The notes under the pieces are model-generated. The model had not been told where the DNA came from, searched no databases, and worked only from the letters and a program-made list of their open reading frames with translations. A DNA stretch of 64,000 bases from the NCBI GenBank assembly GCA_034231615.1, contig CM067298.1:26306528-26370527 (forward strand), given 5' to 3'. Below are positions 1,813 through 52,877 of this stretch, piece by piece. A program made the translations under genes and the position numbers. Position 1 is the stretch's first letter. Each line of letters starts with the position of its first letter. Origin of the DNA: Meghimatium bilineatum (Eukaryota > Mollusca > Gastropoda > Stylommatophora > Philomycidae).

Positions 1813-1884
1813 ATGGTCTGAATCTTAAGCAAGGGAGCGAACGTCCCATTAGCGAGCGCTTGTATTTCATTGTCGTAAAGTGAC
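1813..1884 (-). CDS. slit: slit exon: domain 2, LRR5 (last exon in the window)
   Basis: A 72-nt exon with acceptor AG at 1885-1886 (tract TTTGTTTCCCAG) and donor GTAAGT at 1807-1812. It reads SLYDNEIQALANGTFAPL then LKIQT and a split codon beginning AT (Met or Ile). It matches SLYDNxxQxxAxGTFxxLxxIQTM of Slit domain 2. The next exon should encode the domain 2 LRRCT cap (CDCxLxWLADYL in the family). No such sequence occurs in 1-1812, so it must lie outside the window. Confidence 0.94.
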
Positions 1885-6007: not shown

Positions 6008-6079
6008 AGAAGATTCAAACCGGAGAGATCCTTGAATGCATCCTCTCGTACACAACTAATCTTGTTGGCATTGAGTAAT
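6008..6079 (-). CDS. slit: slit exon: domain 2, LRR4
   Basis: A 72-nt exon with acceptor AG at 6080-6081 and donor GTAAGT at 6002-6007. It reads LLNANKISCVREDAFKDL then SGLNL and a split Leu codon. It matches the Slit domain 2 repeat LLNANxIxCxRxDAFxDLxxLxLL with the conserved Cys. A 24-27-bp minisatellite starts about 140 bp upstream of its acceptor. Confidence 0.95.
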
Positions 6080-8409: not shown

Positions 8410-8481
8410 AGCAGTTGTAAGGAGCTGAGGCCATTAAACACACCAGGTGGAAGCTCTGTGATCTTGTTGCCATACAGCACC
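8410..8481 (-). CDS. slit: slit exon: domain 2, LRR3
   Basis: A 72-nt exon with acceptor AG at 8482-8483 (weak tract, CAACCCTAG) and donor GTAAGT at 8404-8409. The translation is VLYGNKITELPPGVFNGL then SSLQL and a split Leu codon. It is nearly identical to the family repeat VLYGNKITELPxxxFxGLxSLQLL, among the most conserved parts of Slit domain 2. Both ends are phase 2. Confidence 0.95.
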
Positions 8482-13154: not shown

Positions 13155-13226
13155 AGTGAGCTCAGAGAATATAAACCCGAGAAAGCGTCTGGAGATATGT
13201 AAGAAATTTGATTGTTTCCCAAATCT
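13155..13226 (-). CDS. slit: slit exon: domain 2, LRR2 (its 5' junction seeded a minisatellite)
   Basis: A 72-nt exon with acceptor AG at 13227-13228 (pyrimidine tract TTGTCTTTCCAG) and donor GTAAGT at 13149-13154. It reads DLGNNQISYISPDAFSGL then YSLSS and a split Leu codon, matching DLSNNQISxIxPDAFxGLxSLxSL of Slit domain 2. The oddity is outside the exon. The 36 bases at 13210-13245, spanning the last 19 bases of the intron and the first 17 of the exon, recur with about two changes in each of 77 tandem units immediately upstream in the transcript (13298-17347). The coding exon itself looks intact. The real acceptor is the copy nearest the exon body. Confidence 0.94.
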
Positions 13227-13245
13227 CTGGAAAGACAAATATTGT
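13210..13245 (-). promoter_or_regulatory. slit exon 3' splice site, founder-like copy of the minisatellite
   Basis: On the gene strand: ACAATATTTGTCTTTCCAG then the exon start AGATTTGGGAAACAATC. The array units read ACAATGTTTGTCTTTCCAG (or GTCTGTCC) then AGATATGGGAAACAATC. That is about 34 of 36 bases shared across the intron-exon border. Beyond these 36 bases the exon continues into coding sequence while the units continue into CTAACCTCATGC, so the duplicated segment ended 17 nt inside the exon. A 52-bp spacer (13246-13297) that starts unique and ends in partial unit sequence lies between this copy and unit 1. Confidence 0.9.
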
Positions 13246-13297
13246 ATCTCATACATTTATGGACGTTAATATTAAACATTGTGATAGCATGAGGTTA

Positions 13298-16200
13298 GAT
13301 TGTTTCCCATATCTCTGGACAGACAAACATTGTGATAGCATGAGGTTAGGTGATTGTTTCCCATATCTCTGGAAAGACAAACATTGTGATAGCATGAGGT
13401 TAGATTGTTTCCCATATCTCTGGACAGACAAACATTGTGATAGCATGAGGTTAGATTGTTTCCCATATCTCTGGACAGACAAACATTGTGTTAGCATGAG
13501 GTTAGGTGATTGTTTCCCATATCTCTGGACAGACAAACATTGTGTTAGCATGAGGTTAGGTGATTGTTTCCCATATCTCTGGACAGACAAACATTGTGTT
13601 AGCATGAGGTTAGGTGATTGTTTCCCATATCTCTGGACAGACAAACATTGTGTTAGCATGAGGTTAGGTGATTGTTTCACATATCTCTGGAAAGACAAAC
13701 ATTGTGATAGCATGAGGTTAGATTGTTTCCCATATCTCTGGACAGACAAACATTGTGTTAGCATGAGGTTAGGTGATTGTTTCCCATATCTCTGGAAAGA
13801 CAAACATTGTGATAGCATGAGGTTAGATTGTTTCCCATATCTCTGGACAGACAAACATTGTGTTAGCATGAGGTTAGGTGATTGTTTCACATATCTCTGG
13901 AAAGACAAACATTGTGATAGCATGAGGTTAGATTGTTTCCCATATCTCTGGAAAGACAAACATTGTGTTAGCATGAGGTTAGGTGATTGTTTCACATATC
14001 TCTGGAAAGACAAACATTGTGATAGCATGAGGTTAGATTGTTTCCCATATCTCTGGACAGACAAACATTGTGTTAGCATGAGGTTAGGTGATTGTTTCCC
14101 ATATCTCTGGAAAGACAAACATTGTGATAGCATGAGGTTAGATTGTTTCCCATATCTCTGGACAGACAAACATTGTGTTAGCATGAGGTTAGGTGATTGT
14201 TTCCCATATCTCTGGACAGACAAACATTGTGTTAGCATGAGGTTAGGTGATTGTTTCCCATATCTCTGGACAGACAAACATTGTGATAGCATGAGGTTAG
14301 GTGATTGTTTCCCATATCTCTGGACAGACAAACATTGTGTTAGCATGAGGTTAGGTGATTGTTTCCCATATCTCTGGACAGACAAACATTGTGATAGCAT
14401 GAGGTTAGATTGTTTCCCATATCTCTGGACAGACAAACATTGTGTTAGCATGAGGTTAGATTGTTTCCCATATCTCTGGAAAGACAAACATTGTGATAGC
14501 ATGAGGTTAGATTGTTTCCCATATCTCTGGACAGACAAACATTGTGATAGCATGAGGTTAGATTGTTTCCCATATCTCTGGACAGACAAACATTGTGATA
14601 GCATGAGGTTAGGTGATTGTTTCCCATATCTCTGGACAGACAAACATTGTGATAGCATGAGGTTAGGTGATTGTTTCCCATATCTCTGGAAAGACAAACA
14701 TTGTGTTAGCATGAGGTTAGATTGTTTCCCATATCTCTGGACAGACAAACATTGTGTTAGCATGAGGTTAGGTGATTGTTTCCCATATCTCTGGACAGAC
14801 AAACATTGTGATAGCATGAGGTTAGATTGTTTCCCATATCTCTGGACAGACAAACATTGTGATAGCATGAGGTTAGATTGTTTCCCATATCTCTGGACAG
14901 ACAAACATTGTGTTAGCATGAGGTTAGGTGATTGTTTCCCATATCTCTGGACAGACAAACATTGTGTTAGCATGAGGTTAGGTGATTGTTTCCCATATCT
15001 CTGGACAGACAAACATTGTGATAGCATGAGGTTAGGTGATTGTTTCCCATATCTCTGGACAGACAAACATTGTGTTAGCATGAGGTTAGGTGATTGTTTC
15101 CCATATCTCTGGACAGACAAACATTGTGATAGCATGAGGTTAGATTGTTTCCCATATCTCTGGACAGACAAACATTGTGTTAGCATGAGGTTAGATTGTT
15201 TCCCATATCTCTGGAAAGACAAACATTGTGATAGCATGAGGTTAGATTGTTTCCCATATCTCTGGACAGACAAACATTGTGATAGCATGAGGTTAGATTG
15301 TTTCCCATATCTCTGGACAGACAAACATTGTGATAGCATGAGGTTAGGTGATTGTTTCCCATATCTCTGGACAGACAAACATTGTGATAGCATGAGGTTA
15401 GGTGATTGTTTCCCATATCTCTGGAAAGACAAACATTGTGTTAGCATGAGGTTAGATTGTTTCCCATATCTCTGGACAGACAAACATTGTGTTAGCATGA
15501 GGTTAGGTGATTGTTTCCCATATCTCTGGACAGACAAACATTGTGATAGCATGAGGTTAGGTGATTGTTTCCCATATCTCTGGACAGACAAACATTGTGA
15601 TAGCATGAGGTTAGATTGTTTCCCATATCTCTGGAAAGACAAACATTGTGATAGCATGAGGTTAGATTGTTTCCCATATCTCTGGAAAGACAAACATTGT
15701 GATAGCATGAGGTTAGATTGTTTCCCATATCTCTGGACAGACAAACATTGTGATAGCATGAGGTTAGATTGTTTCCCATATCTCTGGACAGACAAACATT
15801 GTGATAGCATGAGGTTAGGTGATTGTTTCCCATATCTCTGGAAAGACAAACATTGTGTTAGCATGAGGTTAGGTGATTGTTTCCCATATCTCTGGACAGA
15901 CAAACATTGTGATAGCATGAGGTTAGGTGATTGTTTCCCATATCTCTGGAAAGACAAACATTGTGTTAGCATGAGGTTAGGTGATTGTTTCCCATATCTC
16001 TGGAAAGACAAACATTGTGATAGCATGAGGTTAGGTGATTGTTTCCCATATCTCTGGACAGACAAACATTGTGATAGCATGAGGTTAGATTGTTTCCCAT
16101 ATCTCTGGACAGACAAACATTGTGTTAGCATGAGGTTAGGTGATTGTTTCCCATATCTCTGGACAGACAAACATTGTGATAGCATGAGGTTAGGTGATTG

Positions 16201-17347
16201 TTTCCCATATCTCTGGAAAGACAAACATTGTGATAGCATGAGGTTAGGTGATTGTTTCCCATATCTCTGGAAAGACAAACATTGTGATAGCATGAGGTTA
16301 GATTGTTTCCCATATCTCTGGACAGACAAACATTGTGATAGCATGAGGTTAGATTGTTTCCCATATCTCTGGACAGACAAACATTGTGATAGCATGAGGT
16401 TAGATTGTTTCCCATATCTCTGGAAAGACAAACATTGTGTTAGCATGAGGTTAGGTGATTGTTTCCCATATCTCTGGACAGACAAACATTGTGTTAGCAT
16501 GAGGTTAGGTGATTGTTTCCCATATCTCTGGAAAGACAAACATTGTGATAGCATGAGGTTAGATTGTTTCCCATATCTCTGGACAGACAAACATTGTGAT
16601 AGCATGAGGTTAGATTGTTTCCCATATCTCTGGAAAGACAAACATTGTGATAGCATGAGGTTAGGTGATTGTTTCCCATATCTCTGGACAGACAAACATT
16701 GTGATAGCATGAGGTTAGATTGTTTCCCATATCTCTGGACAGACAAACATTGTGTTAGCATGAGGTTAGATTGTTTCCCATATCTCTGGAAAGACAAACA
16801 TTGTGATAGCATGAGGTTAGGTGATTGTTTCCCATATCTCTGGAAAGACAAACATTGTGATAGCATGAGGTTAGGTGATTGTTTCCCATATCTCTGGAAA
16901 GACAAACATTGTGATAGCATGAGGTTAGATTGTTTCCCATATCTCTGGACAGACAAACATTGTGATAGCATGAGGTTAGATTGTTTCCCATATCTCTGGA
17001 AAGACAAACATTGTGATAGCATGAGGTTAGGTGATTGTTTCCCATATCTCTGGACAGACAAACATTGTGATAGCATGAGGTTAGATTGTTTCCCATATCT
17101 CTGGACAGACAAACATTGTGTTAGCATGAGGTTAGATTGTTTCCCATATCTCTGGAAAGACAAACATTGTGATAGCATGAGGTTAGATTGTTTCCCATAT
17201 CTCTGGAAAGACAAACATTGTGATAGCATGAGGTTAGGTGATTGTTTCCCATATCTCTGGAAAGACAAACATTGTGATAGCATGAGGTTAGGTGATTGTT
17301 TCCCATATCTCTGGACAGACAAACATTGTGATAGCATGAGGTTAGGT
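13298..17347. repeat. 51/54-bp minisatellite, 77 units, each carrying a copy of the slit acceptor
   Basis: I count 41 units of 54 bp and 36 of 51 bp, which sum exactly to 4050 bp. Plus-strand units contain TGTTTCCCATATCTCTGGA, then C or A, then AGACAAACATTGTG, then A or T, then TAGCATGAGGTTAG. Four positions vary: presence of a GTG triplet, GACAGAC versus GAAAGAC, GATAGC versus GTTAGC (27 units), and CCCATAT versus CACATAT (3 units). Because both unit lengths are multiples of 3, two frames stay open for about 1400 codons, one per strand; these are not called as genes. Units 17-28 (14141-14773) have the same variant order as units 31-42 (14876-15508), a 735-bp shift. Confidence 0.97.
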
Positions 17348-17589
17348 GAGACCTTAACATTGTTCTCAGTTTTATTTCCGCAGTTACATATCAATCGTAA
17401 AGCCCATAATCCGTCAAGGTATTATTGATGATGTGTTATGTCCATCAACATGTATATTACTTCAGTGATTTATTAAATCAGCGATGTGGTTGAATGTAGA
17501 CAATTGAGATCTAATCATTTTCTGATGTTGTTTGTTAGGGATTTTCTTTGTCCTCCTCGGCCCCTTCCAACCTCAATAGTTCCCTGCAG

Positions 17590-19645: not shown

Positions 19646-20235
19646 TGTCTATGAACGTGCCTCGTGTAATTGGACGTACTGTTCCTGTGCCCTTTGTTAT
19701 TATCACTTTGTTTTTATCACTTTTACATCGGGTATATATCCACTATTTTATTATCACTTCAACACCTATATCTCTAACTATTTCGTGGTTGGTTACTGAT
19801 TCCGCAGGCCGTGGATACATGGACAGTTGTCAGATTTTTATTTTCTCTAGAGTGATGGTAATTTTGTTTTTGGCTGTTAAAATTGTAATTTCTGCTTTTA
19901 CCATCTAACGCAAAAGTGTGTAGACTAGGTCTGTAAATTAATATAAGTCTATCTGTTCAACATACACATATGAAATAGAGATTTAACTTCTTAATTCATG
20001 TTAGAAAAAATGAGGAAGTCAGTCCTTGTATGTATAAAAATCAAGGTAGTGTATGTATAACATCAAGGACGGGAGTGTCTAAAATCAAAGACGTGAGTGC
20101 TTGAAAGACGGAGAAGATGCAGTACGATAGAGGACATGCCATACGTGGAAAATGGGAATGTGCTTAGCTAACAATATGACAATCAATACAAGGTAACTGC
20201 GTGAAACGTAACAACAATTAGACTTAAATTTCTCT

Positions 20236-20366
20236 TATCAAGTAAAACCTTCGATATCAGACTAATTTTTTATCAAGTAGAACCTCCGATATCAGACTAA
20301 TTCTCTATCAAGTTGAACCTTCGATATCACACTAATTCTCTATCAAGTTCAAGTAAAACCTTCGAC
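20236..20366 (-). repeat. inverted outlier block of the 35-45-bp array
   Basis: Three to four units (AACCTTCGATATCAGACTAA, TTCTCTATCAAGTTGAACCT) are the reverse complement of the array starting at 20585, about 220 bp away. The block and the array can form a long stem. Confidence 0.85.
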
Positions 20367-20584
20367 AATTAGACTTAGACGTAAAACACAGGTTTATATT
20401 TCGTTTCAATGGGACACGACAGACTATAGGCTTAGGTAACAATCCAATTTACCAGGTAGCATTGCAATAGACAGTAATGGTACTATTTGATAGAAAAAAT
20501 AAGACAATATTATATTAACATAATTAAAGGGACAACGTGTGCACACTACACACCATGATGATGGAAGTTTGCAAAATATGAAAG

Positions 20585-22038
20585 GCTCTACTTAATAAGA
20601 GAATTAGTCTGATATCGAAGGTTATACATGACAAGAGAATTAGTCTGATATCGAAGGTTATACATGACAAGAGAATTAGTCTGATATCGAAAGTTTTACT
20701 TGACAAGAGAATTAGTCTGATATCGAAAGTTTTACTTGATAAGAGAATTAGTCTGACATCGAAGGTTTTACTTGGTAGAGAATTAGTCTGATATCGAAGG
20801 TTATACATGCTAAAAGAATTAGTCTGATATCGATGGTTCTGCTTGATAACAAAATTAGTCTGATATCGATGGTTCTGATTGATAACAAAATTAGTCTGAT
20901 ATCGAAGGTTTTACTTGATAGAGAATTAGTCTGATATCGAAGGTTCTACTTGATAGAGAATTAGTCTGATATCAAAGGTTTTACCTGAACTTGATAGAGA
21001 ATTAGTCTGATATCGAAGGTTTTACTTGAACTTGATAGAGAATTAGTCGAATATCGAAGGTTCTACTTGATAGAGAATTAGTCTGATATCGAAGATTTTA
21101 CTTGAACTTGATAGAGAATTAGTCTGATATCGAAGGTTCTACCTGATAGAGAATTAGTCTGATATCGAAGGTTTTACTTGAACTTGATAGAGAATTAGTC
21201 TGACAGCGAAGGTTCTACTTGATAGAGAATTAGTCTGATATCGAAGGTTTTACTTGAACTTCATAGAGAATTAGTCTGATATCGAAGGTTCTACTTGATA
21301 GAGAATTAGTCTGATATCGAAGGTTTTACTTGAACTTGATAGAGAATTAGTCTTATATCGAAGGTTCTACTTGATAGAGAATTAGTCTGATATCGAAGGT
21401 GCTACTTGATAGAGAATTAGCCTGATATCGAAGGTTTTACTTGAACTTGATAGAGAATTAGTCTTATATCGAAGGTTCTACTTGATAGAGAATTAGTCTG
21501 ATATCGAAGGTGCTACTTGATAGAGAATTAGTCTGATATCGAAGGTGCTACTTGATAGAGAATTAGTCTGATATCGAAGGTTTTACTTGAACTTGATAGA
21601 GAATTAGTCTGATATCGAAGGTGCTACTTGATAGAGAATTAGTCTGATATCGAAGGTTTTACTTGAACTTGATAGAGAATTAGTCTTATATCGAAGGTTC
21701 TACTTGATAGAGAATTAGTCTGATATCGAAGGTGCTACTTGATAGAGAATTAGTCTTATATCGAAGGTTCTACTTGATAGAGAATTAGTCTGATATCGAA
21801 GGTTCTACTTGATAGAGAATTAGTCTGATATCGAAGGTTCTACTTGATAGAGAATTAGTCTGATATCGGAGGTTCTACTTGATAAAGAATTAGTCGGATA
21901 TCGGAGGTTCTACTTGATAGAGAATTAGTCTGATATCGGAGGTTCTACTTGATAGAGAATTAGTCTGATATCGAAAGTTTTACTTGATAAGAGAATTAGT
22001 CTGATATCGAAAGTTTTACTTGATAAGAGAATTAGTCT
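20585..22038. repeat. 35-45-bp minisatellite, about 39 copies
   Basis: GAGAATTAGTCTGATATCGA plus AGGTTCTACTTGATA gives 35 bp. Longer units insert TGAACTTGA. GATATC, a 6-bp palindrome, sits at the centre of nearly every unit. Confidence 0.96.
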
Positions 22039-22279
22039 GGGGAAAGATGTTAGGGTGAACCTCTATTTCTGTACGAAGACGTATGCAAACTCAATATGCA
22101 GATAAGGAATATATACGGAATCATGGGAACATTATAACATAAAACCTGCTGTACAGAGGGGGAAGATCCGGAATGGTATAAAGGGAAAAGTGATAGCAGC
22201 TAGTTTTAATGGCTGCACGTCTAAGAATACAAACAACAGCATAGGATGGTACAAGTAGACATGAGATTTCTTGTTCTTA

Positions 22280-22795: not shown

Positions 22796-22867
22796 ATTCG
22801 TTTTAAGCTGGCTAGATCTGCAAATGCCCTTGATGGAATCTGTGTTATGTGATTCTCCTCAAGCCGT
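22796..22867 (-). CDS. slit: slit exon: domain 2, LRR1
   Basis: A 72-nt exon with acceptor AG at 22868-22869 and donor GTAAGT at 22790-22795. The reading is RLEENHITQIPSRAFADL then ASLKR and a split Ile codon. It matches the Slit domain 2 repeat of the form RLEQNxIxxIPxxAFxxxxxLRRI. The next intron in the transcript, about 9.6 kb, is the one that contains the 51/54-bp acceptor-bearing minisatellite and the 35-45-bp array. Confidence 0.94.
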
Positions 22868-29572: not shown

Positions 29573-29717
29573 ATTTCGATAGCAGATTCGGGAATGTTGT
29601 CTGGTATTTGAGTGAGTCCCTTGTCTCGACAATCTACAACACCATCAACACAGCGACACTGTCGTGGACATAGATTTTCTTCCATGCATTCTACTGAGTG
29701 TCGACTCTCAAATGTTG
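29573..29717 (-). CDS. slit: slit exon: inter-domain linker and domain 2 LRRNT cap
   Basis: A 145-nt exon with acceptor AG at 29718-29719 and donor GTGAGT at 29567-29572. It enters in phase 1 and leaves in phase 2. After a linker (TFESRHSVECMEEN) it reads LCPRQCRCVDGVVDCRDKGL and TQIPDNIPESAIE. This is a textbook LRRNT cap with Cys spacing C-x3-C-x-C-x6-C, and it matches the start of Slit domain 2 (CPxxCRCxDGIVDCRxKxLTxIP). In characterised Slits domain 2 contacts the first Ig domain of Robo. The exon opens that domain here. Confidence 0.95.
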
Positions 29718-30745: not shown

Positions 30746-30909
30746 CGTCACACTTGAAGTCATCTTCTTGCAGTTCTGAAATTTCAGCGTTGCGCAAATG
30801 AAGAGGCTGATGACACTCAGTGAATAGTGCTAAAGTTGGATTCCTGCGTAGCCACCGAGAAAACCACGCTAGATGGCAATCACAGACCAATTTGTTGTCA
30901 TTGATTCTT
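30746..30909 (-). CDS. slit: slit exon: domain 1 LRRCT cap
   Basis: A 164-nt exon between an AG at 30910-30911 and the donor GTATG (30741-30745). It starts RINDNKLVCDCHLAWFSRWL and ends EDDFKCD plus one base (phase 1). CDCHLAW with the later TECHQPLHLR and FKC gives the four-cysteine LRRCT cap (C-x-C ... C ... C). Its wording is that of Slit domain 1 (CDCHLAWLSxWLR ... LRGxNV ... FxC). The cap closes the first LRR solenoid. This exon and the next make the assignment to Slit firm. The following intron, about 1.0 kb, is the shortest in the window and has no minisatellite. Confidence 0.95.
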
Positions 30910-34820: not shown

Positions 34821-34892
34821 AATACCCTCAACATTTTCATATTGTCGAACAAATTTGCAGCAAGTGACGTCATATTGTTGTTACTTAGGGTT
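34821..34892 (-). CDS. slit: slit exon: domain 1, LRR6
   Basis: A 72-nt exon with its acceptor AG at 34893-34894 and donor GTAAGT at 34815-34820. It reads TLSNNNMTSLAANLFDNM followed by KMLRV and a split Leu codon. It corresponds to the last full LRR of Slit domain 1 (family pattern TLNNNNITxL...FxxMxxLRxF). The next exon is the LRRCT cap, the expected order. Both ends are phase 2. No premature stop or frameshift is present. Confidence 0.93.
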
Positions 34893-43270: not shown

Positions 43271-43342
43271 AGAATTTCCATATTTTTTAAGTGTCGAACT
43301 GCTCCATCAGAGAGGCATGTGATTTGATTGTGATCCAATTGT
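43271..43342 (-). CDS. slit: slit exon: domain 1, LRR5
   Basis: A 72-nt exon lies between an AG at 43343-43344 and the donor GTAAGT (43265-43270). It begins with base 3 of a codon and joins in phase to the previous exon, giving N-L-Q-L across the junction. The translation is QLDHNQITCLSDGAVRHL followed by KNMEI and a split Leu codon. This matches the Slit domain 1 repeat of the form QLDYNQISCIEDGAF, including the conserved Cys in the middle of the repeat. The intron before it is about 9.5 kb and the one after it about 8.4 kb. Phase 2 at both ends makes the exon symmetric, so skipping it would remove one LRR without a frameshift. Confidence 0.93.
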
Positions 43343-52805: not shown

Positions 52806-52877
52806 AAGTTTTTCAGCAACGTGGAGCTCTTGAGTGTTTGTCGACCAATGTACTGTATGTTGTTGTAGCTGAGGTCT
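52806..52877 (-). CDS. slit: slit exon: domain 1, LRR4
   Basis: This 72-nt internal exon is the most 5' exon of the gene in the window. On the minus strand it follows an AG at 52878-52879 and is followed by the donor GTGAG (52801-52805). It starts with the last base of a split codon and reads DLSYNNIQYIGRQ, then ends LLKN plus two bases of a Leu codon (phase 2). That is one complete leucine-rich repeat. It aligns with the fourth LRR of the first LRR domain of Slit proteins (family pattern DLSxNxIQxI...IKNL). The product would be secreted, and domain 1 lies N-terminal to the Robo-binding domain. The next exon upstream was not found in 52878-64000. The LRR alone could fit other LRR proteins; assignment rests on the following exons, which continue in phase. 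Confidence 0.88.

Follow-up and report, generated by a model that had tools for sequence, protein, structure and literature searches.

The window analysed here comprises 64,000 nucleotides of contig CM067298.1 of the gastropod Meghimatium bilineatum (C1 below; window position x corresponds to position 26306527 + x of this contig), and ten minus-strand exons within it fit slit, those for LRRCT1 and LRRNT2 among them. The molluscan nature of the genome is borne out by 50 matches to PF14830, a family that marks molluscan hemocyanin, and a single COX1-like stretch with 5 TGA codons lies on another contig (C2 below). One intron of this gene contains a large minisatellite whose repeat unit spans the boundary between that intron and the exon that follows. 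This exon (13155..13226, minus strand, 72 nt, DLGNNQISYISPDAFSGLYSLSS) encodes the second leucine-rich repeat (LRR2) of domain D2 and lies between an acceptor AG at 13227-13228 and a donor GTAAGT from 13154 (AG/A...CT/GTAAGT, with slashes at the boundaries). The intron, which is opened by the donor of the D2 LRR1 exon (22796..22867, minus strand, RLEENHITQIPSRAFADLASLKR, from the exon finder), is 9569 nt long, 43% of which is taken up by the array. The sequence-only reading of this DNA had assigned the exon to LRR2 of the Robo-binding domain of slit, and both a paralogous exon described below and a protein alignment support this. When the four D2 repeat exons from 13226 on were joined, residues 1-95 of the query matched residues 62-156 of human SLIT2 D2 (PDB 2v9s/2v9t) in a single stretch of 95 residues of equal lengths with 138 bits, which places the 72-nt repeat exons in slit domain D2. 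Six among the matches listed (ALS, LRRC15, LGR5) had higher total scores, but these were split over 4-5 stretches each, and the best single stretch was 46 bits in the two that were shown residue by residue. PDB 2v9t shows the Robo-bound form.

Tandem Repeats Finder (TRF) detected one minisatellite at 13274-17349 on the minus strand, with a period of 54, 77.5 copies and 95% matches. The minus-strand units were split by the search pattern TCCAGAGAT[A/T]TG, which returned 77 acceptors within the array together with the real one. Since the distances from acceptor to acceptor were only 54 (40 times), 51 (36 times) and a single 88, which is the final step to the real acceptor, no unit was skipped, and the array thus consists of 77 units of 51 or 54 bp. 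In transcript order, each unit is made up of an intronic piece of 15-18 nt (ACCTAACCTCATGCTATC, in which variants and a deletion of 3 nt occur), 19 nt running through the AG (ACAATGTTTGTCTTTCCAG, or ..CTGTCCAG) and 17 exonic nt (AGATATGGGAAACAATC). The units vary in four ways, and the order of the variants along the array has no fixed period.

The last 36 nt of this layout correspond to the real border at 13210..13245 (minus strand), which reads ACAATATTTGTCTTTCCAG/AGATTTGGGAAACAATC. Its 19 intronic and 17 exonic bases are present in 77/77 units, so that the unit spans the intron-exon boundary, and the distance from array to exon is 47 nt, which means that the array adjoins the authentic boundary that it copies. 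The earlier statement was that the border recurs in every unit with about two changes; by exact count, 25 units have 2 mismatches and 52 have 3. The statement that the match ends 17 nt into the exon, where the units switch to a different piece of 15-18 nt, is correct. A homology between this piece and the intronic bases that immediately precede the real acceptor was considered, as the two can be aligned by eye, but 1598 of 3000 shuffles scored as well, and it was rejected. The 36-nt core has a mean pairwise identity of 0.985 among units, and two private differences separate the real border from all 77 of them. In other words, the units are homogenised and the boundary copy has diverged, a pattern that marks the 'mirage' minisatellites known from amphioxus.

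Two ways in which the proposed relationship could have failed were examined, namely a chance alignment and a satellite dispersed through the genome. At best, the border agreed with the array at 34/36 bases, compared to a maximum of 24 in 200 dinucleotide-shuffled arrays and 22/36 for the rest of the minus strand in the window. Seven other slit acceptors (one taken at 22866, where the true start is 22867) gave 15-20 matches to the array. When up to 3 mismatches were allowed, a 31-base core occurred 78 times in the 1.61 Gb genome, in every case at the array locus, and the reversed core, used as a control, had no match. A second haplotype of the array locus was not found in this genome-wide search either. 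Neither objection therefore holds, the second being excluded at up to 3 mismatches.

Origin and growth of the array

The direction of copying can be read from a slit-like paralog (L094, on contig C2), which contains the same 72-nt exon (DLGNNQI, AGATCTAGGAAACAACC; DLGNNQITQIAPDAFSGLRSLSS) with 83% identity and identical boundaries, the D2 LRR2 exon of the array locus being open and conserved. TRF found no minisatellite in the intron before that exon, just an AG dinucleotide run, and no extra boundary copies were present at 6/6 tested boundaries of the paralog. The D2 LRR2 exon and its paralogous counterpart both encode DLGNN, and the array units encode DMGNN. Because the DLGNN version is shared with a paralog whose intron has no minisatellite, the exon is the source and the array is the copy. 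These comparisons indicate that the array was derived from the exon border and not the reverse, which upholds the original suggestion that the border had seeded it.

The array has also grown by duplication of several units at once. A block of 12 units is duplicated, with units 36-47 recurring as units 50-61 according to their variant code, and units 5-9 recur as units 12-16 with the same variant code string. At its 5' edge, the flank is continuous with the first unit's intronic piece, which is what a tandem-duplication model predicts for the 15-18 nt piece. At the other end, the last unit is cut short after ACAATGTTT and is followed by 28 new bases and then by ACAATATTTGTC...; this 28-nt spacer between the truncated unit and the shared border (13246..13273, minus strand) is flanked by ACAATGTTT and ACAATATTT. 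The final spacing of 88 equals 51 + 37, and this sum and the broken last unit suggest that a 37-nt insertion probably took place in the parental copy.

Taken together, we consider it probable that the array is a 'mirage' minisatellite which arose by duplication across a 3' splice site and grew to 77 copies, with the decoy acceptors being mostly silent by-products. A short tandem duplication that reached out of the intron, over the live splice site and into the exon would have been the starting event. Multi-unit duplication or unequal exchange would then have led to 77 copies, presumably by neutral growth, and the spliceosome would still define the exon by its own donor and the acceptor that is last and strongest.

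Boundary minisatellites elsewhere in slit and in the genome

We also surveyed the window plus 100 kb on each side (264 kb). From the rows of a motif-based exon finder, some of which gave alternative ends, 20 slit exons were picked, one row per exon; three of them (-39324, -51523 and -56797) are doubtful picks, and the finder is incomplete, as it misses D1 exons upstream of 52877. Copies of boundary windows of 32-36 nt were sought that lay no farther than 8 kb away and had at most 4 mismatches. Such copies were found at 3/20 slit acceptors (77, 10 and 3 extra copies) and at 0/20 slit donors. The slit gene thus presents one phenomenon in three sizes, the acceptor region being present 4, 11 and 78 times when the real one is included. 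The 5' edge of all three arrays, as read by eye, starts with the intronic end of the unit.

The second array lies at the acceptor of the exon at -23833 (C1:26282694) and covers L021:6160-6589, which corresponds to C1:26282687-26283116. It has a 39-bp unit with about 8 exonic bases and 10 extra copies, the AG being intact in 9/10 of these, and in the copy nearest the exon AG has become AA. None of the 10 extra copies would shift the frame or bring in a stop, each unit amounting to 13 codons. The third array, at the acceptor of the exon at -32834 (C1:26273693), covers L020:7133-7383 (C1:26273660-26273910) and has a 64-bp unit with about 34 exonic bases and 3 extra copies; the copies are 98% alike, and the array looks recent. 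If its acceptors were used, a stop would follow after 16 codons in 3/3 cases. In both of these arrays the real acceptor is itself the last repeat.

Within the window, neither boundary was tandemly copied at the minus-strand slit exons 1813..1884, 6008..6079 and 8410..8481, the LRRNT2 exon (29573..29717), the LRRCT1 exon (30746..30909) and the D1 leucine-rich repeat exons at 34821..34892, 43271..43342 and 52806..52877. The intron that bears the 77-unit array additionally contains two arrays of one 35-bp unit in opposite orientations (20230-20348 and 20582-22039).

As a control, we used 60 of 150 listed matches to the LDL-receptor class A domain, a non-random choice that favors the first entries. 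Each was taken together with its flanks of 350 bp, and 59 acceptors and 49 donors were located by a script in these stretches. A similar copy test gave copies at 0/59 acceptors and at 2/49 donors. The donor array in L053 is clear, with a 46-bp unit in 8 copies up to the end of the stretch, each comprising about 13 exonic bases and GTAAGT. The one in L035 is weaker and was judged by eye; its 29-bp unit occurs in 12 copies up to the stretch end, with about 4 exonic bases and GTAAGT or variants of it. Boundary minisatellites thus recur in the Meghimatium bilineatum genome, with donor cases in genes other than slit, and this recurrence is of more interest than the single array. A further array at L050:457-665 (144-352 within the stretch, on the reverse strand of the locus) has a 36-bp unit in 5.8 copies and ends at an acceptor; its units read GAG where the exon has CAG. 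We regard it as a borderline 'mirage' and excluded it from the hit count.

The surveyed region is rich in minisatellites, with 85 arrays (period of at least 20, at least 3 copies) covering 36.6 kb of the 264 kb. Under random placement of these 85 arrays with 45-nt seeds, 0.29 overlaps with slit acceptors are expected compared to the 3/20 observed (P = 0.003, or 0.03 for the two that were found later), in a test that is post hoc and assumes the seed length. The comparison of slit with the 60-exon control gave P-values of 0.014 for acceptors (3/20 versus 0/59), 1 for donors (0/20 versus 2/49) and 0.12 for all boundaries (3/40 versus 2/108). We do not claim an enrichment of arrays at splice boundaries on the basis of these numbers. 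It is a tentative and rather doubtful idea that minisatellites in this mollusc lineage arise preferentially on splice boundaries, as part of a process of tandem duplication across splice sites that acts continually throughout the genome and leaves introns strewn with copies of live acceptors and donors, from 3 up to 77 or more. If it were true, slit and other genes would thereby acquire decoys of variable copy number, and the copies would also be material from which new introns and exons could form.

The same region contains a 100-N gap at C1:26429003-26429102 (L029:8476-8575; 122476-122575 when the numbering of the window is continued), located between stretches that are about 94-99% alike in larger pieces and that probably represent an unpurged haplotype or a recent duplication. 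Of 13 comparable minisatellites flanking the gap, a count that leaves out arrays with another period or without a partner, 6 differ in copy number (for instance 23.0 versus 59.0), and minisatellites near this gap look unstable.

Splicing of the intron and alternative explanations

The array places 77 predicted acceptors upstream of the real one, and we examined what their use would entail. With a matrix built from 17 other slit acceptors, the real acceptor scored 12.7, compared to 9.1 for the 28 T-type decoys and 3.9 for the 49 G-type decoys. No GTRAG donor is present inside the array, the nearest sequence being GTGAAA in 3 units. Use of any decoy (77/77) would cause an insertion of a length that is 1 modulo 3 and that includes a stop. 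Lastly, the distance to the real donor is at most 300 nt for only 3 of the 77 decoys, the other 74 being farther away. Because of the lower scores, the missing donor, the frameshift with its stop and the small number of decoys near the donor, the decoys are most likely silent. Just upstream of the real acceptor there is also a GAG at 13248-13250 (minus strand), the use of which, judging from the sequence, would add 21 in-frame nt without a stop.

Two other ideas about the array were discarded. One is that RNA structure hides the decoys, for which the z-scores were -0.80 at the real site, +0.39 for two units and +2.47 for three units. The other is that the array is a coding sequence. Long open frames do run through it, with 1406 aa at 13208-17428 on the plus strand and 1381 aa at 13249-17394 on the minus strand, since 51 and 54 are multiples of 3. 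However, the minus-strand open frame is out of the frame of the exon, and the exon frame has 30 stops in the units plus 3 after the last array acceptor.

Several observations weigh against the mirage with mostly silent decoys. The splice matrix is rough, being built on 17 sites, and by the measure of AG-free length the decoys are as good as the real acceptor or better: their AG-free zones are 47-50 nt in 76/77 cases (40 in one) and contain CTAAC motifs, and the real acceptor has 19 AG-free nt upstream, within a range of 14 to 50 over the 8 real slit acceptors tested. Moreover, the 15-18 nt piece lacks a significant counterpart beside the real acceptor, and its displacement by the 37-nt insertion would have to be assumed. 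A rival possibility is that splicing into the decoys is frequent enough to reduce or control the output of slit through frameshift, premature stop and decay, in which case the length of the array would tune slit as a poison-acceptor variable number tandem repeat (VNTR). The AG is indeed kept in 77/77 decoys, each with its long AG-free zone and CTAAC motif, every insertion would carry the frameshift and stop that such a mechanism needs, and T-type decoys differ from the real acceptor over -19 to +3 at one site only (-14). The gene slit is dosage-sensitive in model animals, and strong use of the decoys should therefore be selected against. The decoys are outscored by the real site, most of them are more than 300 nt away from the real donor, and amphioxus mirages were seemingly spliced normally (PMC3087553). 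On balance, a regulatory use of the decoys appears unlikely.

The remaining explanations carry far less weight than the mirage reading. It is very improbable that the unit number was wrong or inflated in assembly, or that the array was misjoined. The probable unpurged haplotig beside the 100-N gap, about 58 kb past the end of the window, speaks for a less than perfect assembly; on the other side, that gap is the sole N run in the 264 kb, the four kinds of variants follow each other without a fixed period, and the two other slit mirages have clean edges. Slightly less probable still is that the mirages feed new protein, the decoys serving as in-frame alternative acceptors. This would be plausible for the array at -23833, with its open 39-bp units in frame in 10/10 extra copies, but the copy nearest that exon is without an AG, the array at -32834 would run into its stop in 3/3 cases, and the 77-unit array would give a frameshift and a stop throughout. 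As to a dispersed satellite or a transposon-borne repeat that abuts the exon by chance, the abundance of minisatellites in the region is in its favor, whereas the location of all 78 core matches (up to 3 mismatches allowed) at the array locus and the presence within the unit of coding sequence conserved in the L094 paralog make it hardly credible.

Relation to known boundary minisatellites

The sequence-only reading had named no described VNTR of this gene that is built from a live splice acceptor. Uniqueness of the array is not supported, given the two further slit acceptors and the L053 and L035 donors in the same genome and the 'mirage' minisatellites of amphioxus, the units of which span intron-exon boundaries in Adh3 and in the globin genes BflGb6 and BflGb9 (PMC3087553). 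In that account, results of RT-PCR (reverse transcription PCR) pointed to normal splicing, and the haplotypes were not alike in copy number. Further amphioxus cases concern troponin C and PGBD5 (PMC3902484). The slit arrays resemble these mirages in that a tandem unit spanning a boundary lies beside the authentic one, at acceptors or donors (PMC3087553). The homogenised units and the diverged border also have a parallel in BflGb6, where concerted evolution is described that homogenised the units and left out the boundaries of the cluster (PMC3087553, PMC3902484). The differences are the mollusc host, the occurrence of three arrays in one gene, the 77 extra units, where reported haplotypes of amphioxus BflGb6 have 3 and 6, and the frameshift with a stop that every decoy of the largest slit array would give.

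A human case is the minisatellite of IFI6 (6-16), which contains multiple splice donors that are used in mRNA and give protein isoforms (PMC4526556, citing Turri et al. 1995). Like the slit array, it is a minisatellite with splice sites adjoining an exon. Unlike it, the slit array repeats acceptors and has no GTRAG donor, and its decoys are predicted sites only, whereas the IFI6 donors are used. Since a frameshift would result in 77/77 cases, productive use of the slit decoys is unlikely. The VNTR of ABCA7 is, to our knowledge, not built from a splice boundary itself. It does resemble the slit array as an intronic tandem repeat within a functional gene (PMC5954066), and it is one of the ordinary intronic VNTRs with an effect on splicing.

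No boundary minisatellite of a mollusc was found in the open-licence literature, among the matches listed. The kind of element has thus been described before, and the host lineage and the size of the array are new within the open-licence literature searched. In that literature, apart from human IFI6, the phenomenon belongs to cephalochordates alone; the slit case extends it to a mollusc, and boundary minisatellites may be common in minisatellite-rich genomes. Such arrays offer a natural test of how the spliceosome chooses among many near-identical sites, and of whether boundary minisatellites act as seeds of new introns or exons, as has been proposed for the amphioxus globins.

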